Of a stretch of 64,000 nucleotides of DNA, positions 5,455 through 22,300 are shown in pieces. Origin of the DNA: Pristionchus mayeri (Eukaryota > Nematoda > Chromadorea > Rhabditida > Neodiplogasteridae). Position numbers and translations under genes: made by a program. The DNA lies in assembly GCA_036245805.1 (NCBI GenBank), contig BTRK01000005.1, positions 42,395,216 to 42,459,215 of the forward strand, in the 5' to 3' direction. Each line of letters opens with the position of its first letter. Position 1 is the first letter of the stretch. The notes below the pieces were generated by a model. That model was not told where the DNA came from. It was given only the letters and a program-made list of their open reading frames with translations, and ran no database searches.

Positions 5455-8400
5455 CTACCGTAATCATTCGGCAGGATAACGTGCCGACTCTCCAACTACC
5501 GTAATCTCTCTTCATCCCTGGAAGCTGTGCACGAGATCCGTGTGATCGCCAGACTCCTGCAGCAGCCTGGGAAAATCAAAATTAGGAGTAAATTGTTTTC
5601 ATCGAAGGAAAGTGAGACATACTGCTAACAGGAATGATTTCAGTTTATGAAGGGAATGTGAAGCACAGTTTCACCGATGAGCAAAACTCAAATTTAGAGG
5701 ATAAAATATAACGAGAAAAATTAATCAAACCTCGTTTCTTGCACGAATCCATCGGGAAGACGATCTCGATCTCGAAGACGATCTCGCATCCCTGAATTAT
5801 GAACTTATTACGCTAGTTGAATGTAAATTGAGCCAACAAAACATGTCTAGGCCCGGAGAAAAATAAGTAATTTTTACCGCATCTAGGCATCAGACAGAGT
5901 TCTTACAAAGATCAAATCAAAAAATCTATATCCTCGATAAATTTGATATTAGGGCTGACCATTAGTTCTCCCTCCTTCACCATTCTTCTCCTCGCTCCTC
6001 TCCACGAATCATCCGCAGTTGAGAGAACGAGCACTAATCGATCGGAAGAGGATACCGTATCCTGAAGATTATAGATTGACCCATGAACTTTTCACTACTA
6101 ATGTACATCTACTGATGTTCTTGTTCAGACCTTTTCTCACAATCAAATCTATACTCCTACAGTACTCCCCACTATCCCTCTACCGTAACCTGCAGATTTT
6201 CGATTGTTCTCCCTTCATCCTGGAAGATGTGTACGAGATCCGTGGGATGGCCAGACTCCTGGAGAAGCCTTCGATTGCCAAAGTATGATTAATTATATTT
6301 TTAGACCAGAACAACTGCCAAATAAAATAATCGAAAATACGGTGAAGCACATCATCGTCAGTGAAGAAGATTGAGAAAAATTTAATATGTGGCACAAAAC
6401 CCGCGAACACTGCCAGCCCAAGTGATCTCGGTTTGTGATACGAGTGTGAAGCACAGCTTTACCAGTTATCAAAAAGTTCCAAAATTAGTCACTAAAAACA
6501 AGAAAACAAGGAAAACCTCGCTGCTTCCTGCACGAATCCATCGGGTCGGCACACGAAGACGATCTCACATCACTGAATTAGAATTTTATTACCGTAGTTG
6601 CGTAATAAATTAAGACAGTTATAACATATAGGTCCAACGCTTAATGAGTGATTTTTTGCCGCAGCTGGGACAAAACCAGTACACTGAGTCACATCTTTCA
6701 ACCAAAAAGATAAAGAGTATAACAATATTCAAACTGCTGGTCAGAATCTCATACACCATCAATAATAGCAACTTGCTGAATTGCCGTTGCCAATACCATC
6801 TTTAGAAAAGAGCAATGCGCTAATTCAATCTTCGAAACCCATGTTTCCGCACAACCAACAAATCGATTAACCACAGATATTAAACTGTCACCAAGTTGAA
6901 TCCAGGCATCAGACACCGCTCTTCCCAATAGATCAGTACAATGCGTCGGTATTTTGATAATATCTTTTCATAAAACTAACCGTTAGTTCTCCTAAATTCT
7001 CCTTTGCGATTCTTCCCCTCGCTCCTCTTCACGAATCATCAGTAGCTGAGAGAAAGTGCACCATCGATCGGGAGAGGATACCGTATCCTGAAGATTATCG
7101 ATTGACCAAAGAATATTTCAAAATTATGAACTAATGTACAGCTACAGCTTTTCCGGTCAAGAAAATTGATAATTTGTTGTTTAAGAAAACGAAAAAAAGA
7201 ATAAAACCTCGCTGCTTCCTGCACGAATCCATCGGGCCCGCACACGAAGACCATCTCACATCCCTGAATTATGATCTCTTAGTTGAATATTAATTGAAGA
7301 GGAAAACATGTCTAGGTCCAACACTAAATAAGTGATGTTTGCTGCTGCTGGGAGAACTGGTACACTGAGTTACGATTTATCGATCGAACCCCTTTGGACG
7401 CGTACAAAAACCATACAAAGTACTCGACAGCATCTCATTCACCATTACGAACTAGCAACCTTTTGAATTGATGTTGCTCTCAATCATCTTTAGAATAGAC
7501 CAACATGCTACTCCGGTCAACCACTCTCTCCCTTCGCAACCAACAAATCGATTACCCATTGATGGTGAGCTTCCCCCCATTCACACAGTTTAATATAGGC
7601 ATCAGACAGCGTACGAATAGATCAGGACAATGTGTTGGTTTTTTCTTAGAACTGACCGTCTCCCACGTTACTACCATTTCGCGATTCTTCCCCTCGCTCT
7701 TCTCGACAAATCTTCTGCGGTTGGCGGAACGTGCACCATCGATCGGAAGAGGATACAATATCCTGAAGATTATCGATTGGCCCAAGAACATTTCGATACT
7801 ATCATTTAATGTACAGCTAGTGCTGTTGTTGTTCAGACTCTTTTCCCCAATCGAATCAGTGTTCCTACAGTATTCTTCAATTTTCCCTCTACCGTAACCT
7901 ACAGATTATCGATTGATCTCCCTTCATCCGTGGAAGATGTGAATGGGATCCGTAGGCCTTAATCCAGCTGCAGCCTTAGAAAAATAAAATTAAGATTAAT
8001 TTGTTTGCTTCGAAAGGATGTTCACGGACTATTCTCAGCTGAAGTGATCTCGCTTTATGAAACGAGTGTGAAGCACAGTTTTACCGGTCATAAAAATTCA
8101 AAATTTATTGATAAAGGATAAAAAACAAATAAACCTCGCTGCTTCCTGCACGAATCCATCGAATCCACACAAGAATACGATCTCGCTTCACTGAATTACG
8201 ATATATATTATCTACGAGGAATACAAATTGGGGCAACAAAAATATCGGGGACATACTCTCAATGAGAGATTTTTGCCGCAGCTGGAACAAAACCCGTACA
8301 CTGGGTAGCGATCTTTCAATAAAAAAAGAGAATAAAAAATAGAAAGTGCTCCTCAGGATCTCATTCTCCATCAAGACTACCAACCTGTTGAAATTGCGAT

Positions 8401-9358
8401 GCTCACTATCATCATTAGAATAGAGTAACAAGGTACTTCGATTGTCGACTCCCTTGCCGTTCCCAACAACCAACTAATCGATTACCCATTGATAGTGAGC
8501 TTTCCCCATTCACACATTTGAATCTAGGCATCAGACACCACTCTTCCCAATAGATCAGTACAAAGCGTTGAAATTTTGATCATGTTTCCATAAAACTGAC
8601 TGTTAGGTCTCCCACATCCTCCTTCGCGATTCTTCCCATCGCTCCTCTCCACGAATCATCCGCAGCTGAGAGAACGTGAACCATCGATCGGGAGAGGAAA
8701 CCGTATCCTGCATGTAATCGATTGGCCCAAGCATATTGGATTATCATCCACTAATGTACAGCTATTGCTGTTCTTGTTCAGGCACTTCCTCCCAACTGGA
8801 ATCAATGCTACTACAGTTTCCCTATTTCCCTATATCGTAACCTGGGGCTTGTCGATTGATCTCTCTTCATCCCTGGAAGATGCGCACGAGACCCGTGGGA
8901 TGGCCAGACTCCTGCAGCAGCCTGAAATTCAACATTCAAAGCATTTTTATGTATTTGCAAGAGAAGAAGACCGTTCACTGTCAAGTGAAATGATCAATAC
9001 TTATGAGAACAGTGATATTCACTTCAACATAGAAGCACTAGGTGGCGCAATTTACAATTTTAAAATTATGGTATGCCCATTCCGTAAATCAATCGATATA
9101 TCTACCGTGACTCTCCCATCCTCTCTCCTCGATCACTCCGACATCATCTAATTCAAAATTACGACTAGCAACCTTTTGAATTGCTGTTGCTCACTATCAT
9201 CTTTAAAATAGAGCAGCATGCTACCACGATTCTCCACTCTCTCAATTCAGTACCAAATAATCGACTACCCATTGATAGTGAGTTTTCCCCCAGTCACCCA
9301 GTAAAATCCATGCATCAGCCACCGCTCTTCCCAATAGATCAGCACAATGCGTCGGTAT
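5455..9358. repeat. degenerate tandem array, left part (units about 0.7-1.1 kb)
   Basis: A long text recurs in order. It contains 'aggcatcagac..cgctcttcccaatagatca' (near 5884, 6904, 7593, 8525, 9312), then 'ccataaaactgaccgttag', 'accatcgatcgggagagga', 'gattatcgattg' (twice per unit), 'tggaagatgtgcacgagatcc', 'gagtgtgaagcacagttt' and 'cctgcacgaatccatcggg'. Units are 70-90% alike by eye with internal deletions, so spacing varies. Open frames are short and differ between copies, so I do not call protein genes. The same array resumes at 19331, on the other side of the 10-kb transposon. Confidence 0.85.
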
Positions 9359-9363
9359 GTTGA
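9359..9363. repeat. left target-site duplication GTTGA
   Basis: GTTGA here is matched by GTTGA at 19326-19330, directly outside the inverted repeats. Removing the element and one copy gives '..gcgtcggtatGTTGAtgatatg..ccataaaact'. That is the continuous text seen in uninterrupted array units near 6943, 8570 and 19686. Confidence 0.85.
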
Positions 9364-9853
9364 CACAGCGTGTCAGAGAGATCGAGTTCCTTTGTTCGTC
9401 GCGGCGCTCGAGCAATATCATTTCTGTTCACTTGTTAGAGTGGAGTGGTGAGACTATGAAAAAAGTGCTTTATAATTTCGATGAAACACATGATATAACA
9501 TTGTAAAAATATCAAATATGTAAATGTAAATACATATATCTCTTATTTTACGAGTAAAGAGTCATGCCCACCGTTCTCAACCATGTATTTTTTTTGAATT
9601 TTTTTTGAGCGGATTTTGCGAAATTCTAAAAATTTCTCCACTAAAAATCGAACTCTTCAGAGGGGAATCATGGGGGACCCCACTTGTGGGGTGTTTTCTG
9701 AATCCACATGCGTAGCTCTACAAATGCAACAGACAGATTTTTGATATTGTTTTTAGTATTCGAAAAACGGCCGTGAACGTGCAACCATAGTTGCCCACGC
9801 CGGCGGCGACCCCCATGACCCCCTATTCATGGTTTCGCACTGCTCCCCTCGAT
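9364..9853 (+). repeat. left terminal inverted repeat of the 10-kb element
   Basis: This block is matched in reverse complement by 18841-19325. Shared landmarks include 'ttcgtcgcggcgctcgagca', 'aaagtgctttataatttcg', 'ccccac(t/a)tgtggggt' and 'ttcatggtttcgcactgctc'. A short weaker match continues to about 9880 and corresponds to the far side of the palindrome inserted in the right copy. Confidence 0.85.
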
Positions 9854-10460
9854 TTAGGGACCTCCAAGTAAAATTTTCAACTCGTGGTGTATTTGAAAGT
9901 GCAGTGCACGGGGCTCTTTTCTACTCGCCCGCGAATTCAAATTGCCGTTATAAATTGGTTTTTATTAAATATTTCGATTTCTTCAAGGTGCCCCTATTCG
10001 GTTTTCGGTGAATGGAAAGAACAGATTGGTATGCGACTTATGAAAAATTTTGAAAGGATTCTGTATTTGCAAACATCCTGAATTGCACACTCATTTTAGC
10101 AGACTTTTTGAAAAGAATAGTCTAATGAACGTCTTACAGAGTGCCCCTCCTCAGTTATATCATTAATCGATTCTATAATGCCGAATAAAGAGTTTACGAC
10201 AAAATTGAGAAAATTGATATTTGCAAACCTTGTTTAAAAAATTAATGTAATTTAATGTTTATTTTTTGCCAATTACGGTAGCCTTCGTCGTAGGATACCT
10301 GAAAATGTTACGGTAATTGTTACTATCGACGTTTCTCGTCATTTCATCATTCATTCTCGATTTTTTGCGAGGCAGTTCCAGCTGCAGATCCTCTTTTCCT
10401 TCCTTTGAAGGTATCTTTTTACTGGGTTCGTAGTCATTCTTTGACATTATATCGTCTCAG

Positions 10461-11196
10461 ATGACGTCATTAAAGATTGATAGCGATGGGAATGAAGTTC
10501 TGTTGATCTATTCTAAGGACTCCACATTTTCTAATCACTACCCATCACCATTTGTGGACCCGACAACTAACCAGTACTACAACTGCTCGGAGCAGTATTA
10601 TATGTATGTACATATATGTGCAATGATATTGAGATGAGATAACACTCGTCTTCTAGGCAGAAAAAGGCCTAGTATCATGACGATTTTGAGTCTGCTAGAT
10701 TGATTATGGAGTCAGAATCTCCAGGTCGACAGAAAACTCTCGGCAAGAAAGTAAAAGGATTCGATCAGCCCGGTTAACGTTGCTTGATACTTGCTCAATC
10801 TAAATTGAAATTCAGATGGGATCTTGTTTCTAGAGATGTGATGTACAAAGGCGTCACGATGAAATTTAAACAAAATAGAGGTGCTCTAAGAGAGTTGTTA
10901 TCCACAGGCGATAAAACTCTCCTAGAATGTTCGCCGACTGACAGGAAATGGGGAATTGGTGAAGTTCATTGAACTAAGTCTATTCTAGGGGTGGTTGCAG
11001 GAATGGATAGAGATGATCGTGACGTGATTTACCGTGCTAAGTGGGGCGAAAATTGGATGGGTAAAATTCTGATGAGAGTACGTGATGAGTTAAGAGAGGT
11101 TGGTCAAATTACAATGACCTTGACGAACACTTCCTCTAGCTCTACGATCCGTCTCCTCCAATCTCTCCTTCCAGAGTGTCTCATCAAGCGACAGAG
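10461..11196 (+). pseudogene. NADAR (YbiA-like) domain gene, four exons, decayed
   Basis: Starts at ATG 10461 directly after TCTCAG. Exons are about 10461-10603, 10657-10772, 10816-10958 and 10989-11196. The domain is recognisable throughout: FSNHYPSPF, then YNCSEQYYM, the segment ESPGRQKTLGKKVKGFD, WDLVSRDVM, LRELLSTGDKTLLE, RKWGIG and WMGKILMRVRDELRE. NADAR proteins (E. coli YbiA relatives) are ADP-ribose-related N-glycosidases; that role is family knowledge, not shown here. Two lesions are visible: an in-frame TAG at 10670-10672 inside the conserved QKKA/YHDD stretch, and a one-base phase conflict at the exon 2/3 junction. Skipping to the 'cctag' acceptor at 10672 would avoid the stop but drops the conserved KA. 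The gene lies inside the 10-kb transposon. Confidence 0.75.
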
Positions 11197-11249
11197 GTAA
11201 TTAGTAGTGGGCAAATAATAGTGACTTTTAATGAATCGTATATAGTACA

Positions 11250-11451
11250 CTGCACGTGTTTCTCCATTCGATACGAGTGATTTTCCACCGTTGGAAAAGT
11301 CGAAATCCGATACAGTTGAGGTTCGGCCTGTAGTTATTAAAGAAAGATCTTCTGGTTGGAAAATAGGTAAAATAATTGGTCAAAACCTCTATAGCACTCG
11401 CCCGTGCATCATCCATCATTGACGAGTGGGAAGAAGAAATCCCCTCTCAAG
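11250..11451 (+). CDS. probable downstream exons of the NADAR gene
   Basis: An open stretch ending at donor 11366 encodes a Pro/Ser/Glu-rich linker (PFDTSDFPPLEKSKSDT, later SSGWKIG). It is joined in phase, over a 28-nt gap that is very short for an intron, to an exon at 11395-11451 that encodes SSIIDEWEEEIPSQ. That last motif is the first member of the EWKEE mini-exon series at 11985-12437. The link back to the exon ending at 11196 is one base out of phase in the simplest model, so either the acceptor is misplaced or there is another lesion. The function of the linker is unknown. Confidence 0.4.
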
Positions 11452-11984
11452 GTAAAATGAAATAATAACTATTTCCTGTGATCTAAATGGGAAATGCCTC
11501 TACAGTATTCACTCTTCCCTTCTCCTCATTTTCAATCTTTCGGTCAGCTCTCACCTTCAGAGAGTCAAGTGAGGATGTTGTAACAATAAATATTGAAATG
11601 ATCAGCCATAAATAATCAAATATTCGGTCTACAGTACACATACGCTGTCAAAAATTCTCTGACAAGGCCAGCGTTGAAAAGCACGAAATCACAGAAAAAG
11701 GTAGTGACCTCATACGTATGACATAGCGAAATTTACGTGGGCAACGTGTCTTCAGTGTTTCACCTCGTCGCGATCGACTCTTCTACCCTCTCATTCTATC
11801 TTGAGTACTTCCCGAGACCCAGTGGTACGATAATTTGATGACAAATAAGAATCACATACCGTAGTAAAGCTTAAAAATATCCAGTGTTCGGCTAACCTCT
11901 GGACGGAAGCAAATTCCGCTCCCGAGAGGAAGACTCCATCTAAGGTATCTTCTGGTCTCAAAAAACCCTCCCTCATTGTTTGTA

Positions 11985-12437
11985 CAGTGTTCTCCAATTG
12001 TTCCTTCTCCCCCCTCACTTATCCATTCATCATCTTCCAAGAGTGGAAAGAGATCAACCAAGAAGGTGTAATTTCGAAGAAACTTACCGTAATCTTATTG
12101 TTTCTAAAGCGTTCCCTCATTGCTCCTTCTCTCTCACTTATCCCGACAGCACCTTCCAAGAGTGGAAAGAAGAAGTCACCCAAGAAGGTGTATTTTAAAA
12201 AAATCTTAACGTAATCTCATAGTTTCTACAGTGTTCTCCCATTGCCCCTTCTCCCCTCTCACCCATTCAGGCACCATCATCGAAGAATGGAAAGGAGAAA
12301 CCACCCGAGAAGGTGTAATTTAAAAGAATCTTACCGTAATCCCATTGTTTATACAGTGCTCTCCCATTGCCCCTTCTCCCCTCTCACCCATTCAGGCACC
12401 ATCATCGAAGCATGGAAAGAAGAAGCCATCCCAGAAA
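11985..12437 (+). repeat. 122-bp tandem array of acceptor/mini-exon/donor units
   Basis: Four units begin near 11985, 12107, 12229 and 12353. Each has 'cagtg(t/c)tctccc' and 'ccccttctcccctctcac' as a pyrimidine tract, then a CAG acceptor, a ~40-nt exon and a GGTGTA donor. Exons 12271-12312 and 12396-12437 are 42 nt with phase 1 on both sides, so copies can be added without breaking the frame. They encode TIIEEWKGETTRE and TIIEAWKEEAIPE. Unit 2 has lost its CAG and unit 3 (12150-12187) has a shortened exon that is not a multiple of three, so the array is partly decayed. Confidence 0.65.
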
Positions 12438-12601
12438 GTATTGGGGTGTCCGGAAAATTCGTATAATGCTTCGGAAAAAAGTCAGTTCGCGATCAAATGC
12501 AGTCATTGCGCAATCTGTTTGTCAACAATGTATTGCATCATTCTGAAGTTGAGTAGTGAGAGGATTTAATCAGTCTCCTAGTTGCTACATTGATTCTTGT
12601 G

Positions 12602-13617
12602 ATGGACTCCCATCTCTACCTCCGAGCAGTTTTACTTCATTGCTACCGTCTTGGCCGATCCGTCAAGGAGGCCCACTCTGCCCTGGCCCAGTCGGAAGGA
12701 GCTGACGCCCCGTCCATACCCTTCTGCTATAAGTGGTTCTCCCGCTTCAAGAAAGGGAGTTTGGTCTCGATGATCAACCCCGCTCTGGACGCCCTCCCTC
12801 CCTCGATCAGCCTCTCGTTCTCCGCACACTGAAGCGCAAGCCCATGTCCAGTGTGCGTGAGTTGAAGAAGGATACTGGTACTCCCAGATCAACGGTGTCC
12901 GATATCCTCCATCGATCTGGGAAGAAGCCGAAACTCCCACAAGTGATTCCCCATGACCTCTCCCCCGAACAGCTGAAAAATCGTGTTCAAGTCTGTCGGG
13001 AATTACTCCATCGTAGATCCAATCTTCGATGGGTCAATTCCATCATCGCTACAGATGAGAAGTGGATCACGTACGATAACCCTGTGAGGAGACTGCAATG
13101 GGTGGATGCAGATGAGAAGCCCACGCCCGTCCCGAAGAAGGAAGAGCACGGAAAGAAGGAACTCCTCTGCTTCTTCTTCTCAGTGCTCGGTCTCATCTAC
13201 TGGGAGATCCTCGTCCCTGGCACCAGCATCAATGCCGACCTCTTCTCTGAACAACTGGAAGATGTCGCGATCAGAGTCCCTCCCAGACTCCTGAACCAGG
13301 GCAAAATTCTTCTTCTGATGGACAAAGCTCGCCCACATCGAGCGAAGATGACCCAGAAGAAAATGGACGAGCTGAAGATCGAGAGGATTCCCCATCCACC
13401 GTATTCCCCGGATATCTCCCCATGCGACTACCACTGCTTCCGCTCTCTCTCTGACTTCTGCAAAGGAAAGAAGTTCAAGAATCGAGATGAAGTTGTGAGG
13501 GCTTTCGTGAACTGGGCGGTCTCGAAGAAACCCGCATTCTGGAAGAGAGGAATCGAGACCCTGCCCAATCGCTGGAGGGAGGAAGTGAGAAAGAAGGGGG
13601 CATACATTGGTCACTGA
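12602..13617 (+). pseudogene. mariner transposase, frameshifted
   Basis: The N-terminal part (from ATG 12602) encodes a helix-turn-helix region ending WFSRFKKG. The catalytic part continues in another frame with DDQPRSGRPP. The shift is one base, in the GGG run at 12755-12757. The mariner signature is complete: TDEKW (first Asp), MDKARPH (second Asp) and PHPPYSPDISPCDYH (third Asp). There are exactly 34 residues between the second and third Asp, i.e. D,D34D. Total length is near the usual ~340 aa. The element sits inside the 10-kb transposon, immediately behind the last mini-exon. A likely 5' end is at about 12441, after a TA ('ttggggtgtccggaaaatt'). The 3' end, near 13690, is too diverged to place. 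Confidence 0.9.
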
Positions 13618-13805
13618 GAATTGTAAAGCATTGAATAAAAAATAAAAACAAAAAATTATACAAAAAATTATATCATAAAAATTTTCACAGATTTGCAATC
13701 GTAGCGCTGCTAGAAGAAGTAATCTATCCTCATGGTCTGATAATCAGCTAACATATGGATGGGTTGGCAACATAAATCCCGATAACTTTGAAACATTACT
13801 TTTAG

Positions 13806-16800
13806 CTTCTTCATCTTGACTATCTAGCCTCATCCAATAATGTTCCCCTATCTTCTCTTATTAATAAGTAAGTTCCACGTAACTCCCAATGTTTTCGTAA
13901 ATGTAGGAGTTGTTTCTCTTCCAGTGAGCTCAATTGTAAATCAGCAGAACGAAGAAAAATTTGGAGACTACTGAACAATATCAAGAGTGAGGAACATAGA
14001 AAAAGACAGCTTCGAATGTTCAGTTACAGTTTTTACGATACTCCGATAGAAATTAGTAACATATGCAGTAGCTCAAACTGTTCAACTAAACAACTAGATG
14101 ATACTACTACTCCCTTAGTCAGTCCATCCTCACATGACACACCCAATCTTCCCAATTCATTCCATCATCCCGACTCAGAAGTAACCATAGCTAGTCCTCT
14201 CAGATCATTTACTCCTCTACTCACTTCCCCATCTAACTCACATCAGAAAAGCTCGCTCTCTCCCTCTCCTTTCTCGTACAAATCCCCGCTTAACTCCGAT
14301 GCGCTCACTGCGGGTCCTCCTTCGCGCGAATTACAATCAATTCCACCTGGTTCAAATACTAAAACGAGGCGCCTGCCTCGATTGACATCCGATTTCTCTA
14401 CCCCTCAATCGATGACGAGATTAAAGCAAAATCTCAAACGGGCACGTGATTCCCGAGACAATTTCAAATTAAAATATCATGAGAAAAAGAAGATATGCCT
14501 GTCTCAGGATAATGAGATCGAAACGCTTACCATTTCATTAACTGATTTAGAAAAGAAATACAATTCCACTACTGCGATGCTCACTGAGGCAACGAGAAAA
14601 TGGACAGAATCGGATAAAAAATGGCGCGATGCGCTTAGGAAATTGAGAGAAAAAGAGGAAGAGGGTGCAATGAGACTTGAACCACTTCCTTCTCAAATTA
14701 TTACAAAAATCTGTCGTGCCTACACATTCCCATGTAAGAAAACGATGATTGAGTGTAAACGGTTCGGTGTGAGCGATGAAAATGTAGGCCCCGTTATGCA
14801 AAGTGTTGTGAAAAATCTGCTGAATTAAACCTTGAGTCATATTCCATCGCCAAATATTGTTGCTCGCAGCTCTTTCGTAGGACTTGGTATTGCGCAAGCA
14901 CACACGCGTGCAGTTCTCGCTGAAGCAGTAGCTGATCAGCAGCATGCATATCATGGAGGATCAGTTTCTAGCGATGAGACGGCGAAAAATACTCATAAAC
15001 TGCAAACTTACAGTATTTCACGACGAGGAAAAAATGGCGAGGCAATTTCACACGTTTTGGGAACTCGTCCAGTAGTGTCGAAACATGCACAAACTTCCCT
15101 GGACACATTTTTTCAACTGCTTGACGAAATCGATCGCGCAGCATCGATCTCTTCCACGTGTAAATCATATTTCGAAAAGTTTCGAGATGCCATTATCTGT
15201 TTTCTAAACTCAGCAGTGGGCGATCGAGCTGCAACACAAGCGAAATTCGCAGACTTGATTGAAATATATCGGAGAGATGTTTTGCCTACCGTGATGGAAG
15301 GATGGAGTACAATGACAGCGCAAGAACAAAGATTACACTTACTTTTCATGTCGGTTCCCTGTTTTGTTCATATCACGGCTAGTCTTACCGAACCAATTTG
15401 CGCGGAACTCGCCAAGCAAGAATATGAAATAACGAATAGCAAAGATGCGGGAGATGGAAAAGCCACTGCGCTAGCTGTAATTCGTGAAATGATCCGCCAT
15501 TTCGGCAGGCGTGGCGCTGCCAAGTACGGTACCTACGACGAATATTTATCGTGGTGCGACCATCATGATCTTAAAAGTGTGAAACTTCCATCTCTGAAGG
15601 GGAATAGATTTAATGTCATTCCGGCTGCAGCCACTCAAATCGTAGCAAACAAAGATCAATTCGCGCAGTTCATCGAATATCATAAAATGGACAAGCTCAG
15701 TGATTTGAGGGAAAGTCTGAACCAAGACCTTCCATTTTCTCAGATTCACGTATTGGCTTTATTTGACATCTACTTGACTAGTCCCATCTGGCGCATGTCT
15801 AATGGTAAAATGAATATCTTCGATACCACTAAATTCGTTAGTGAAATACTGGCTTGGGTTGATGAACGCGTAGCGAATCCAATGATGCTATTCACAGGCG
15901 GACCACCTCTCTTGACTGTAGTATCTGTGAATGATAGCCCCTTCTCCCTAGACCGAGAAGCAGCTGCACTTGTGCTAGCGATTAAGCCATCTCAGTTAGC
16001 ACTTGAAGCAGCTAGACGAGCTATGCATGCAGTACATGCATTTCTCACAAGGGTGTACGCGCCTTACTTGCCTGGTGGTCGTTATCACAAGCTCTGTTCA
16101 TCTAATAGTCAATTCGCAACTATGGCTCGTCAAGCATTTGATGCTACTCCATGCAACAACGTTCTTTCGGAGTCAGTTTTCGGCCTAATTGACTATATTA
16201 TTAACAGGGCTCCTAGTATTAGAATTGCGCGTGCCGATTCGGAGGTACTTCTGAGGAAAAACCGTAGCATTGAGTGGTTTAATGAACTCCCCAAGAGTGA
16301 GCAGGAAAACCTGCTCAATGAATGTGTCAAGCGCGGTCCGATTCTCGAAAGAGAAGCGAAAATAGTAGCAAGTCGTATTACCGAAGAGAAATTCGATAAG
16401 CTGAAAGTCACATCAACAAAGGCGATTATGAAAACGGTAAATATTCGAAACGTGTCGGAAAAGCTCGAATATCATCTTTGGAAATGTGGCTTTCTTTCAA
16501 CAAACGACGATCTCGAGGAATACTTGAATCGAGGAGGAAGTGATGAGACCATTCGCACCCTACTTTCTAATCAGCTGAAGCTCAGACAACGCATTCTAAA
16601 ACAGAGCGTTTTCGGAAAACTTTGCTACACAAGTAGTAATAAATACGGCAAACTCCCCCTCGCCGAACTTACTGAAAAGGTGCGAAAAGCAATCGAGATC
16701 GATCCAAAGATCCTTGTCAGTCAATTCTGTGGGGAGGACGTTTGCAATATTATTGGAAGCTACGACCATTATTACAAAGGATCTGTCTACCCTTGCAAGG

Positions 16801-16939
16801 TGCTTGTGTGCCTGAAAGCCACCAAGAAGAAGAAAGGGCTTCCATATGCACTATAGCAATATACATGTGGAAGATGCAGAAAATTTCTCCTAACGGAGAA
16901 GACATTTTCGAAGTGGTGGAATGGTTCAGTAATTTGTAA
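13806..16939 (+). pseudogene. hAT-like putative transposase of the 10-kb element, ~945 codons with one stop and a frameshift
   Basis: Exons are 13806-13867 and 13925 onward, joined by a 57-nt GTAAGT..CAG intron; an earlier exon is likely. One frame stays open from 13925 to 16856 except for a single TAA at 14826-14828. The first part is Ser/Pro-rich and then a basic coiled coil (about 14400-14690). Counting from codon 14832, acidic landmarks are SDET (D48), GDRAAT (D131) and LSESVFG (E447), matching in order and spacing the D..D..(long helical insert)..E of hAT transposases. I recall similar DRAAT/LP..SE.VFG proteins as an uncharacterised, multi-copy family in cnidarians and molluscs, but cannot verify this. 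At 16855 an extra TA appears to shift the frame; the last ~28 codons continue to 16939 (ending VEWFSNL). No identified domain name. Confidence 0.65.
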
Positions 16940-17276
16940 GAGGGCGGATAGCACAACGCGCAAGGAGGCCAGCAATGGGGAAGTGGAAACGAGAAAAGAG
17001 AACGAGGCATCGGGTGGAAATGAGGGCAAATGAATGACTAGAAAGAGGAGTAAGTGAGTTTGAGTGCCTAGGCCGCCTGAATTGTACATATTTCAAAAAT
17101 ATATATCACAGAAGTTTTTTCAAAATTAATAGTTCTACTCTACTAAATTGTTCGAGAAGGTCTCTTACTGCGCACACTTGGTTGTTGTTCGAAGTTATCC
17201 ATTAAGAAGATATACCTAATAAATAGAATTCAATGTCTGACAAGGAAAAGTGACAGTTCAATAGAATACACTAAGC
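16940..17276. other. no gene seen
   Basis: The 3' flank of the putative transposase gene. It is AT-rich after 17080 and I see no motif. It ends in the 8-bp duplication CACTAAGC (17269-17276) of the next element. Confidence 0.4.
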
Positions 17277-17622
17277 GGCACTCCTGCAGAAGCCCAGATC
17301 GGGGTAACAATAGTGGTGTTAGGAGTAGACCCCAGTCCGGTAAGTCGTACCTTGAGACTGCCGAACCCTTAGACATGTTTGTATTGTCGTACTGTTTAGC
17401 CTACACGCGGAGGGAAGCCGCGAACTGACGCTATTTTAGGTTAGGCATCATTCCTGCAGGCGCTATATAGCGACAGGATTGAGCATTTAGGCTAAAACTT
17501 TCTTTAGTATGTCTCAGGGTTCTGCAATCTAAGGTTATGGTTTACCTGCTTGGGCTCTACTCCCGATACCATTAGCCACTACCCCGATCTGTTACCCCGA
17601 TCTGGGCTTCTGCAGGAGTGCC
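17277..17622. mobile_element. 346-bp non-autonomous element, 8-bp target duplication
   Basis: The ends are GGCACTCCTGCAGAAGCCC inward from 17277 and the reverse complement ending at 17622. The match runs ~32 bp, through 'cagatcggggtaac'. CACTAAGC flanks both sides (17269-17276 and 17623-17630). Eight-base duplications are typical of hAT-type elements. There is no open frame inside. It is nested in the 10-kb element. Confidence 0.85.
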
Positions 17623-18208
17623 CACTAAGCCTTGCGTTCATTACTACAATTCGGCAAGAGTTCACCTATAAACAACGAATAGCACCTAAACTAACTAACT
17701 GCATCCAACGTATAACCGTGAATCCTAATTGTCGGTGCAGACATAAGCCATACCATCACCATAAAACGATCCCATGACTTTAAAAGAGTAAAATCATCGA
17801 GGAACACATCACATATTTGGTAAATGACTAGAGAGCTATCTACCAGAGAGCAGTCTATACTACCAGAAAACTCAATTTGTCAATGTAAACCTATATTTTC
17901 CAAACTAAATGTAAAATAAAAAATGGAGTAGTCGAACTAAAACAGAGAGCACCAATGCGAAAAAGTATGGCCCATCGAGAAAGCGTCGACACACCGTACC
18001 ACACGCGACGCGTGAATTTCATGCGGGCAGCCAGCACTACACCACGAGGGGCGGGGCTTAGGGTGACCGCTTCATACTTGCTCAAATTGAAATTGTATGA
18101 AATTTTGCTAACAGCATTCAGATTCAGCATCGCCGATAACCTAATAGCCATGCAAAAAGAATTTTTTGGAATAATTTCACATTTTACTTGGAGGACCCTA
18201 CCCTCGAT

Positions 18209-18842
18209 TTGAGTGGAGCAGTGCGAAACCATGAACCCCGGGTCATGGTCAAAAATAGGTCGGTAGGTCAATGGTAGGTCAAGACCAGGTACCGTACCCA
18301 ATCGATAGTACAGTACCCCCAGATACCGTATACCACTACCGTAACCCGCGATTATCGCAAACTAACTTTATTTTTTAAAAGTCCTGGAACCGTGTCTAAT
18401 CGATTCTACAGTACACAAGTAACTACCGTAACCCAGTTCCTTAGGTCAGACCCAGTTCCTTGGGTCAAACTTTTTTTCTAAAAATGTCAAACATTTTTCT
18501 AAAAATCCTAAATCGAATGCAAAATGATTCTACAGTAATAAGATATACGGTAGGATACTTTGCAAAAATTTATCGATCGATTTTAAATTTTTAGAAAAAT
18601 GTTTGACCCAAGGAACTGGGTTACGGTAGTCACTTGTGTACTGTAGAATCGATTAGACACGGTACCAGGACTTTTAAAAAAATAAAGTTAGTTTGCGATA
18701 ATAGCGGGATACGGTAGTGGTATACGGTATCTGGGGGTACTGTACTATCGATTGGGTACGGTACCTAGTCTTGACCTACCATTGACCTACCAATTGATTT
18801 TTGACCATGACCCGGGGTTCATGGTTTCGCACTGCTCCCCTC
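18209..18842. repeat. ~630-bp near-perfect palindrome inside the right TIR
   Basis: The arms share 'ggagcagtgcgaaaccatga', 'cgatagtacagtaccccca', 'gataccgtataccactaccg' and 'ttacggtag(t/c)..cttgtgtactgta'. The spacer is about 50 bp, around 18530-18570. The outermost arm sequence is also part of the transposon's own TIR (9800-9850, 18846-18890). This suggests either a TIR-internal rearrangement or a foldback insertion. It contains many TACGGTA/TACAGTA words. Confidence 0.8.
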
Positions 18843-19325
18843 AGATCGAGGGGAGCAGTGCGAAACCATGAATAGGGGGTCATGGTTTGAAAACACCTCG
18901 CCGCCAGTGTTGGGCAACTATGCGTGCAACAAAAAGTGCGTTTTCCATGATAACTCAAATACTAAAAACAATATCAAAAATCTGTCTGTTGCAATTGTAG
19001 AGCTACTCATGAGGATTCAGAAAACACCCCACATGTGGGGTCTCCCAAAATTCCCCTCTGAGGAGTTCGATGTTTAGTGTGTAAATTTTCCGAATTTCTC
19101 AAAATCAACTCAAAAAAATTTTTTTTTTAAAATTGAATGGTTGAGAACGGCGAGAATGACTCTTTATTCATATTTGATATTTTTACAATGTTATATCATG
19201 TGTTTCAACGAAATTATAAAGCACTTTTTCCATAGTCTCACCACTCCACTCAAACTAGTGGACAGAAATGAGATTGCTCGAGCGCCGCGACGAACAAAGG
19301 AAATCGATCTCTCTGACACGCTGTG
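18841..19325 (-). repeat. right terminal inverted repeat of the 10-kb element
   Basis: Reverse complement of 9364-9853, with substitutions and small indels. It ends in CGCTGTG at 19325 and is followed by the GTTGA duplication at 19326-19330. Confidence 0.85.
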
Positions 19326-19330
19326 GTTGA

Positions 19331-22300
19331 TGATATGTTTCCATAAAACTAGCAAGTAACTTTCCCTCATTTACCTAGTATAATCTAGGTATCACACATC
19401 GCTCATCAATACAGCAGCATAGATGGGCAGCGATCTTTCAATCGAAAAAAGAGTAAAAATATAGAAAGTCCTTCTCGGGATCTCATTCTCCATCAAGACT
19501 ACCAACCTGTTGAATTACCGCTGCTACCTATCGTCTTTAGAATAGAGAAACAAGCTACTTCGATTGTCAACTCCCTTGCATTTCCCAACAACCAACTAAT
19601 CGATTACCCGTTGGTAGTAAACGCCAATTAACCCAGTAGAATTCAGGCATCAGATACCGCTCTTCCCAATAGATCAGCACAGTGCGTCGGTATTTCGAGC
19701 ATAAATTTCCATAAAACTGAGCGTTAGTTCTTCCACATTCTCCTACGCGATTCTTCCCCTCACTATTCTCCGCGAATCATCAGCAACTGAGAATCAATCG
19801 GGAGAGGATACCGTATCTTGAAGATTATCGATTGATACAAGAACGTTTTACTACTATTAACTAATGCACAGCTACTGCTGTTCTTTTTCAGACTCTTCCT
19901 CCTAACAGGAATCTAAACACCTACAATTCTCCCACTGTTCCTCTATGTAACCTGCAGATTATCGATTGTTCTCCCTTCGTCCTGGAAGATGTGCACGAGA
20001 TCCATGTGATGTCCAGACTCCTGCATCAGCCTGGGGAAGCTACAATTGGGATTAATTTGATTTTTTTAGACCGTCAAATGACAATGAACTGTCAAGCCGG
20101 ACTGATCTCGGTTTATCAAACGAGTGTGAAACACAGTCTCACCGATGAACAAAATTTAAAATTTAGAGGTCAGAACGAGAGAGAAAAGAGTGAAAACTCG
20201 CTGCTTTCTGCACGAATCCATAGACGTCACCATGCGAAGAAGATCTCGCATACCTGAATTAACATTTTTATTATATAAGTTGAATATAAATTGAGGCAGC
20301 AAACATATATATATGTATGCTATTTCTTTTGCGAAATAACGTGGTACAAAATGAAAAATGGAACATTGTTTAATTACGATTAGAATGAACATGTCTTGGC
20401 AAGAGCCCAAGAAGTGAATTTTACTGCAGCTGTAACGAAAACAGTACACTGATTTTGAGTAGCGATCTTACGATCGAATCCTTTTAACCAGTGTAAAATA
20501 TACGTCAAAATGTCATTCGACATAGAGACTACCAAACCGTTGAGTTGCCGCTGCGCACTATTATCTTTAGAACAGAGAAACGTGCTACTTTGATCTTCGG
20601 CTTCCTATACGTGCCCCACAACCACAATACAACAACTCTCTTCTCAACATATGAACACGATATATACATATTTTAGACCATTGTTTTCTTTAAAAAGGGT
20701 TCCCATGAAACAGAATCATGGACTCTCACAACGACTGTACTGCATGCTGAGTACTGTACGGTGGTTTTCGAAAATTCTGCGCATAGCACTATTTGCCTAA
20801 TTCGACTATATTTTTATGTAAATTGCATTAAACTGGATCGCACATTCCGTGTTTTCACAATAAAAATCCATTAAACTCAATAATAAGGAAGAAAACCGAT
20901 GCTAAGCAACGTGGTGTAACGCAGCGTGCATTTCGAAATTCCGTCTTTTCCGAATCCAACGGCCGTTTTCTCAATCAATGGCTTGAATGCCTACAGTATT
21001 TTTTATTTGCCTGCATTTTCAATGTACTTTAGAAATTAATTGTGCAGCTTGTAGGCATTTATTTAACTTGAAACCAAGTGATTTCTGATCGGAAAAGCGC
21101 CCTCTATAACCCCATGGTGCCATTTTGTTGTCGGCGAGACTCGTGGGAACCCTTTTTTAAAACTGACCTATATTTCCCCGAGATTCTCCTTTGCGATTCT
21201 TCAACTCGCTCTTCTCCACGAATTACAAGCAGCTGTGAGGACGTGCATCATCGATCAGGAGACGATATCGTATCCTGAAGACTATCAATTGGCACAATAA
21301 TATTACTTCTCTACTATCAGCAAGCGTCCAACTAATGATGTACTTGATCAGACTGGTCCTCCCAATCGAATCAATGCTTCTACAGTACACCCCCAACCAT
21401 CTACCGGAATATGCACATTATCGATTAATCTCCCTTCATCCTTGGAAGGTATTCAGAAGATCCGTGGAATGGCCAGGCTCCTTTAGCAGCCGGCAGAAAT
21501 CAAAATTAGGATTAGTTTATTTTCTTCCTAGAATACCCCCAGTCGACTGCCAATCGACATGATTTAGGCTTATGAAAATCGAGTGTAGCACAGTTGTAGC
21601 GGTAAATAAAAGTTAGGATTATTTTGTTTTCTTCGGAAGGATGCTAGTGGACTACTATCAGCAGAAATGATTTCGGTTTATAAAAATGGTTGGAAGCACA
21701 GTTTTACCGGGGATCAAAAATTAAAAATTCGCAAAAAAAGAGAAAGGAAGAAACCTCATCCACTATAAATTGATAGAGGACTATCCATTCACAAGCATAT
21801 TCTAAGCATATTCTAAGCATAAGACAGAGTTCTTATATAGATTAAGCAACTATAACTATAATTTTGAACAATGTGATCATAAAACTGACCATTAGTTCTC
21901 CCTCCTTCACGATTCTTCCCCTCGCTCATATCCACGAATCATCTGCAGCTCAGAAAACGTCCACAAATCGATCGGAATAGGATACCGTAACCTGCAGATT
22001 TATCTCCCTTCATCCCTCGAAAATGTGCACCAGCATTCAAATCGGAACTTATTTACTTATTTCCACAAGCTCCTACGGAACATTGGCAATCCAACTAAAC
22101 TAGGATTATGAAAAGAGTGTGAAACACAGCTTAACCGGTGATGAAAAATCACTATTTCTCGTTAAAACGAGAAAAAAGAGTGAAAGAAACCTCGCTGCGT
22201 CGTGCACGAATCCATCGGGCCCACATACGAAGACGATCTCGCATCCTTGAATTACGATTGTTATTATCGTTGTTGAAAATAAACTGATGCAGAAAAATAT

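Follow-up and report, generated by a model that had tools for sequence, protein, structure and literature searches.

Evidence for NADAR-carrying DNA transposons, one of them nested within a palindromic element, in the nematode Pristionchus mayeri

A stretch of about 10 kb in the genome of Pristionchus mayeri carries, between long inverted arms, a gene with a NADAR domain and a gene for a putative transposase, which raises the question of what kind of mobile element the two genes belong to and why a NADAR gene should travel with it. The stretch lies in a window of 64,000 nt (contig BTRK01000005.1), which was compared with the genome, 290.8 Mb in 73 contigs. A preliminary description had read positions 9364–19325 as one transposon with long terminal inverted repeats (TIRs) and a 5-bp duplication. 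Our analysis points to a different order of events: a host repeat array would have received a palindromic, CAC-ended miniature inverted-repeat transposable element (MITE; here the outer element with ends at 9364 and 19325) that makes 5-bp duplications and contains central foldback DNA, the MITE would then have been entered by a gene-bearing transposon, here called T (9855–18200), and T by a mariner. We favour this nested anatomy, together with a NADAR accessory gene that is maintained in T, with good confidence.

Copies are labelled below by contig and position, and the subfamilies of T by the identity of their transposase to that of the window (~98%, 61% and 44%). In the copies at C5:35.8 and C3:40.8, the match to the window begins at 9855 and ends at 18200; a third copy, at C4:33.17, has its left end at 9855 in common with them and is broken off on the right, with no right-end match within ~3.6 kb past the break. 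The three are near-identical (DNA blocks mostly 97–99%, one 94.7%), and in their fetched flanks the MITE arms are unmatched. The limits of 9364 and 19325 for the gene-bearing element must therefore be given up: the preliminary description had itself named homologous copies with other boundaries as evidence against them, and the left end lies at 9855 in all three near-identical copies, the right end at 18200 in two.

Exact 9-bp target duplications flank T in the window (CCCTCGATT), at C5:35.8 (CACGCGTTC) and at C3:40.8 (CCAAGGATC), and exact 9-bp duplications were also read at C5:31.62, C5:19.97, C4:7.43 and C2:21.58 in the 61% and 44% subfamilies, giving seven of the 12 T-family copies in which the two ends could be read; the duplicated sequence is different at each. 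Both of these subfamilies have the same kind of ends as T. The termini of T copies read TAGGG, the left end of the 44% copy at C6:27.29 being TATGG, and a scan of 11 copies recovered both ends in four, the left end only in six and neither in one. The earlier expectation of several copies with the same two genes and differing duplications was thus borne out, except that the duplications measure 9 bp rather than 5 bp and the ends are those at 9855 and 18200. A distant relative (L061, 26% identity) is 5406 bp long and has TAGAGACCAC ends (TAGAG) and an 8-bp duplication; two further distant loci (L059 and L060) showed no clear ends.

Near the right end of T, the stretch at ~18000–18200 is conserved across the 98%, 61% and 44% subfamilies and is perhaps a binding site of the putative transposase. 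A similar CACTACACCACGA motif occurs in the right flank of the C5:25.0 copy. At C6:26412245–26428005 (approximate coordinates), two 44% copies of T lie tail to tail with their transposase matches 3.1 kb apart; their left flanks are identical over the 22 bases compared, so the pair is probably an inverted duplication. A preference of T for palindromes in general was considered and set aside, as only two of the eight copies tested sit between inverted arms.

That T has moved is also indicated by the mariner within it. The window, C5:35.8 and C3:40.8 copies, each of which occupies its own site with its own duplication, all carry the same mariner; the C4:33.17 copy is without it and shows the empty TA site. 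T must therefore have moved after the mariner had entered it.

The ends of the outer element are identical in inverted orientation over 22 bases (20 had been reported), and the similarity of ~490 bp described for its arms was recovered as blocks of 96%, 82%, 89% and 100% reaching to 9853 and 18845. GTTGA stands at both ends, as had been stated, and the neighbouring array units at 6888, 8510 and 19629 do show the GTTGA site unfilled. The yardstick for this empty site is the host repeat array itself, which spans 6000–22000 of the window with irregular unit spacing. The exact inverted ends, the flanking GTTGA and the empty array sites would all suit a single 10-kb, Transib/RAG-like transposon with long TIRs and a 5-bp duplication. 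Against this stand the near-identical gene-bearing copies bounded at 9855 and 18200, whose flanks lack a match to the arms, and the behaviour of the arms elsewhere in the genome, where they form palindromes of ~800–850 bp; we consider a single element scarcely tenable. Transib/RAG elements have CAC termini and 5-bp duplications. Since the 490-bp TIRs, the CAC start and the 5-bp duplication are not those of T, the comparison with Transib/RAG falls for the gene-bearing element, which has TAGGG TIRs and 9-bp duplications.

The terminal 26-mer of the MITE has 138 genome matches (71 + 67) at ≤3 mismatches, far more than chance would give, the reversed control having none, and its first 491 bp gave at least 72 matches at E ≤ 0.001, the window included, mostly over positions 1–422 and often in inverted pairs. 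The outer ~420 bp of each arm accordingly represent the palindromic MITE. Among four other copies with both ends, the 5-bp duplication is exact in three (CTAAG, CATTA and CGAAT) and agrees at four of five bases in the last; a fifth copy had one end. The outer element is thus short, palindromic, present in high copy number and constant in the length of its duplication, as MITE or foldback elements are. With T removed, the window MITE measures 1607 bp. Three other copies match its left 400–422 bp and its right part from 18923 or 18955, leaving the centre unmatched; this central foldback DNA, with arms 94–95% complementary, is probably a further nested foldback element and the landing site of T. 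Two pairs of MITE arms ~6 kb apart were considered as autonomous partners and rejected: they hold no open reading frame (ORF) longer than 145 residues, which again speaks against a single long-TIR transposon, and no transposase for the MITE was found in them. No autonomous partner of the MITE was thus found in the two loci opened, part of its 138 terminal matches being listed.

The NADAR gene belongs to the T family rather than to the window copy alone. Genome-wide, 32 matches to PF08719 merge into 29 NADAR places, and 70 transposase matches into 56 places (66 of 102 candidates were scored, so that there are at least 56; a few further, more distant places were found beyond these). Twenty-two of the 29 NADAR places sit 2.4–5.5 kb upstream of a transposase place on the same strand. 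Expressed from the side of the transposase, NADAR lies upstream at 22 of the 29 places with ≥37% identity and at none of the 27 below, 0.02 being expected by chance. The earlier suggestion of a nematode mobile element that carries a NADAR gene as well as its transposase is therefore upheld, in the form of a multi-copy family.

NADAR cores of 167, 168 and 170 residues were predicted from one copy per subfamily; they contain no stops and are interrupted by ten GT-AG introns placed by eye. The 44% model is closed by a stop of its own, and the other two may have more 3' exons. All three score 146–159 bits against PF08719 (cut-off 35.1; E = 1e-42 to 2e-46), and the NADAR of T aligns with the Phytophthora NADAR (PDB code 8bau) with an E of 2.8e-17. 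When the 44% protein was searched against a database, two relatives emerged, at 45% and 35% identity. Equivalents of Phytophthora E43, K50, K75, W89, E125, D130 and W133 are kept in all three subfamilies, E125 being the glutamate typical of the YbiA subfamily; positions 84, 86 and 93 differ in all three and position 79 in two. The cores are mutually 46–50% identical, with proportions of synonymous differences (pS) of 0.77–0.88 and of nonsynonymous differences (pN) of 0.35–0.38; the transposases, that of the 61% group being taken from C1:7.87, give 0.69–0.78 and 0.29–0.42. The three NADAR cores examined are thus under purifying selection, and their open frames, retained catalytic residues and pN below a saturated pS in three subfamilies lead us to regard NADAR as a maintained accessory gene. 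In the window copy both genes have decayed, with a stop and the loss of one base in NADAR exon 2 and a TAA in the transposase. A 125-bp tandem array downstream of the NADAR exons perhaps consists of coding units rich in S, P and K (by eye), which would form a basic tail of the NADAR protein.

A captured host sequence carried as an unused passenger (transduplication) would be the simplest alternative, and it has a precedent in the capture of gene fragments by Turmoil-1 of C. elegans (PMC2572040). The absence of NADAR from seven of the 29 places and its broken state in the window would fit a passenger. Its presence at the other 22 places of the clade, in three subfamilies that are only 46–50% identical in NADAR, does not, and neither does the retention of splice sites, reading frame and active-site residues with pN well below pS; we consider a passenger quite improbable beside a maintained gene.

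Seven NADAR places lack a downstream transposase (C5:5176974, C5:24617206, C6:29700059, C6:49474827, C4:21170669, C42:19634 and C1:25090772), some of which may be SNA-3-like genes of the host. Those at C4:21170669 and C42:19634 have the same match pattern and scores.

The transposase frame is open over 1037 residues in four 44% copies and over 1072 residues at C5:35.8. The hAT-like acid motifs noticed earlier were confirmed as D49, D132 and E448, together with a C(2)H motif: all rows of a 14-row alignment have E448, D132, C178 and H181 being ≥90% conserved, with ~266 residues between H181 and E448. It is highly probable that this protein mobilizes T by DDE cut-and-paste via the TAGGG ends. We read T as a DNA transposon of the cut-and-paste type in which a spliced NADAR gene precedes, on one strand with it, the gene for a DDE transposase. 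The intact 1013-residue transposase of the 61% group at C1:7869942–7871993 matches its sister at the DNA level over the transposase half only; no NADAR match was found nearby, and a simple scan gave no convincing pair of TAGGG ends.

Assignment of this transposase to a superfamily is less straightforward. No convincing match to the transposase was found in Pfam, in NCBIfam (four proteins compared) or in PDB sequences, the PDB search giving weak matches only, mostly to coiled coils. Of ~8000 candidates scored for each of a single and an alignment query from a set of 5.8 billion proteins, one proved to be a relative (P0001, 44% identical). Elements of the hAT superfamily make 8-bp target duplications, have TIRs beginning with YARNG and encode a transposase with an RNase-H fold and an all-alpha insertion before the last acid; Mutator/MULE elements make 9-bp duplications, which would fit T. 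That T belongs to hAT as a family that duplicates 9 bp and has a divergent hAT transposase is quite possible, if short of probable. The termini of T (TAGGG) and L061 (TAGAG) conform to YARNG, one 61% copy and L061 have 8-bp duplications, the acids and C(2)H stand in the DDE order, and ES-x-FG resembles, by eye, the SER-x-FS seen in two hAT pieces from this genome. Against it, the duplication is mostly of 9 bp rather than the 8 bp of hAT, and no hAT Pfam domain, dimerization domain included, was found in nine members at E ≤ 1 across all 22 families, or in 14 members at E ≤ 10 among the best 25 of 36 families. An hhalign comparison with hAT pieces from this genome gave a probability of 0.2%, from thin alignments with one or two partial C-terminal sequences, and by eye no scored transposase place overlaps any of 26 hAT-dimer matches. 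A MULE Pfam domain was absent from the full results and from the best 25 of 36 families. In the literature on the duplication length or a new superfamily, there was no recognized match among those listed.

Several observations weigh against the reading of T as a 9-bp-duplicating family with a maintained NADAR gene. The duplication agrees at eight of nine bases at C6:24.80, is imperfect at C6:27.29, measures 8 bp in the 61% copy at C5:19.48 and is lacking at C5:25.0 and C6:26.41. The open 1072-residue frame at C5:35.8 (L010) has E, not D, at the first catalytic position. The 37% identity line was chosen after inspection of the list, and seven of the 29 places above it are without NADAR: C1:7.87 with its intact 1013 residues, C6:4.1, full-length with stops, and five partial ones. 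Intact and full-length transposases without NADAR suggest that the latter may not be needed for movement. Synonymous sites of NADAR are saturated, four of the eight ADP-ribose contacts compared beyond E43, K50 and E125 differ in at least one subfamily, and both protein activities as well as the splicing of NADAR are predictions from sequence.

Known NADARs hydrolyse guanine-linked ADP-ribose (PMC11543638; PMC11125620), the Phytophthora enzyme 8bau among them (PMC11543638). In that paper, hydrolysis is no longer efficient in mutants at the E. coli C7 equivalents of E125; the lysine corresponding to K50 is described as essential, although arginine substitutes for it in vitro; at E43 a Q mutant is inactive whereas an A mutant has a minor effect in vitro; and the tested mutants at these three positions do not rescue cells from DarT1 (PMC11543638). 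By analogy, the NADAR of T would hydrolyse ADP-ribose on guanine in the nucleic acid of the element and so help it, most likely by reversing ADP-ribosylation of its DNA (or RNA) that host enzymes carry out at breaks, in repair or as a defence. We regard this de-ADP-ribosylation role as a reasonable possibility that does not yet reach the probable. No ADP-ribosyltransferase was noticed in seven scanned ORF stretches of T, no search having been aimed at one.

A role at the RNA level, in trans-splicing or RNA ADP-ribosylation rather than on DNA, also deserves consideration. The genome contains 465 exact matches to the SL1 spliced leader (control 0), which also mark it as that of a nematode, and this abundance, together with the spliced appearance of the T genes, would fit such a role. 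It is a live rival because SNA-3 of C. elegans, a triple NADAR protein, has been linked to trans-splicing (PMC11125620); the gene models of T, on the other hand, hold a single NADAR domain, and we judge action on RNA unlikely, though less so than a passenger.

In its widest form, the proposal is that T represents an undescribed nematode DDE group in whose NADAR clade an enzyme of the element's own removes ADP-ribose from nucleic acid, either to counter host defence or for self-repair, which would imply that nematode hosts ADP-ribosylate the DNA or RNA of transposons to restrict them or to mark damage; as a whole this is speculative and rather doubtful. What NADARs do physiologically in eukaryotes, including animals, is described as unclear (PMC11125620). 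The concentration of most NADAR places of one nematode genome in a single transposon clade, together with selection on those examined, speaks for a part played by ADP-ribosylation of nucleic acids in conflict or repair in animals, and the NADARs of the T family offer a concrete, testable system for the role of the domain there. The nested reading also averts the naming of a false group of long-TIR transposons. Coordinates of the features are collected in Table 1.

Table 1. Features of the nested locus, in positions of the window.
Feature	Position	Strand	Remarks
MITE target duplication GTTGA, left	9359..9363	.	Read; empty site in array units
MITE left arm, CACAGCG end, part common to other copies	9364..9785	.	
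Left centre foldback DNA	9786..9854	.	Unmatched in three MITE copies compared
T 9-bp target duplication CCCTCGATT, left	9846..9854	.	
Transposon T, 8346 bp, TIRs TAGGG[A/T]CCTCCAAGTAAAAT	9855..18200	+	Boundaries common to near-identical copies
NADAR exon 1	10461..10603	+	Weak Pfam NADAR, E 0.001, below cut-off; sister-copy model, mapped by eye
NADAR exon 2	10657..10772	+	In-frame TAG near start; one base shorter than sister copy
NADAR exon 3	10816..10958	+	PF08719 E 6e-15
NADAR exon 4, core-domain end	11001..11098	+	PF08719 E 3e-6, below score cut-off; more 3' exons possible
125-bp tandem array, 3.8 copies	11972..12436	+	Unit ~ exon + intron, by eye
Mariner at a TA	12441..13665	+	PF01359 + HTH_48; right end missing in window; end approximate
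Transposase frame, first part, coiled coil	13872..14828	+	Stop-to-stop ORF; TAA at 14826-14828
Transposase catalytic part, 675 aa (predicted)	14829..16856	+	SDET D49, DRA D132, C178-x2-H181, ES-x-FG E448
T 9-bp target duplication CCCTCGATT, right	18201..18209	.	
Right centre foldback DNA	18210..18922	.	Holds palindrome, arms 18198-18451 / 18601-18855
MITE right arm, part common to other copies	18923..19325	.	Start approximate; joined-MITE position 1205 or 1237
MITE target duplication GTTGA, right	19326..19330	.	Read; empty site in array units

Among known systems, Transib/RAG elements resemble the outer MITE only, in the CAC start and the 5-bp duplication, and differ from T in its TAGGG ends and 9-bp duplication. 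Elements of the hAT superfamily share with T the YARNG-type start of the TIRs, the order D, D, C(2)H, E and an ES-x-FG motif near the C-terminus, whereas T mostly makes 9-bp duplications, gave no hAT Pfam domain among the families listed and a low hhalign probability in the thin alignments with partial hAT pieces, and carries NADAR. Among the matches listed from the open-access PMC literature, we found no report of a DNA transposon with a NADAR gene. Turmoil-1, a Harbinger element of C. elegans, is likewise a nematode DNA transposon with foreign coding sequence; it carries gene fragments in long inverted terminal repeats, reportedly without purifying selection (PMC2572040), whereas T has a complete NADAR domain that is selected. 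Mobile elements that keep a YbiA-type NADAR are also found in a Gypsy lineage of Ectocarpus and in Tx1 long interspersed nuclear elements of oyster (PMC12477816), but these are retrotransposons with NADAR in Pol or ORF1, while in T it forms a separate spliced gene of a DNA transposon. The NADARs of the DarT1-NADAR and YarT-YbiA toxin-antitoxin systems and of Phytophthora (8bau) resemble that of T by profile (PMC11543638; PMC11125620), and equivalents of E43, K50, E125, D130 and W133 of the Phytophthora enzyme are conserved in T; four ADP-ribose contacts vary.

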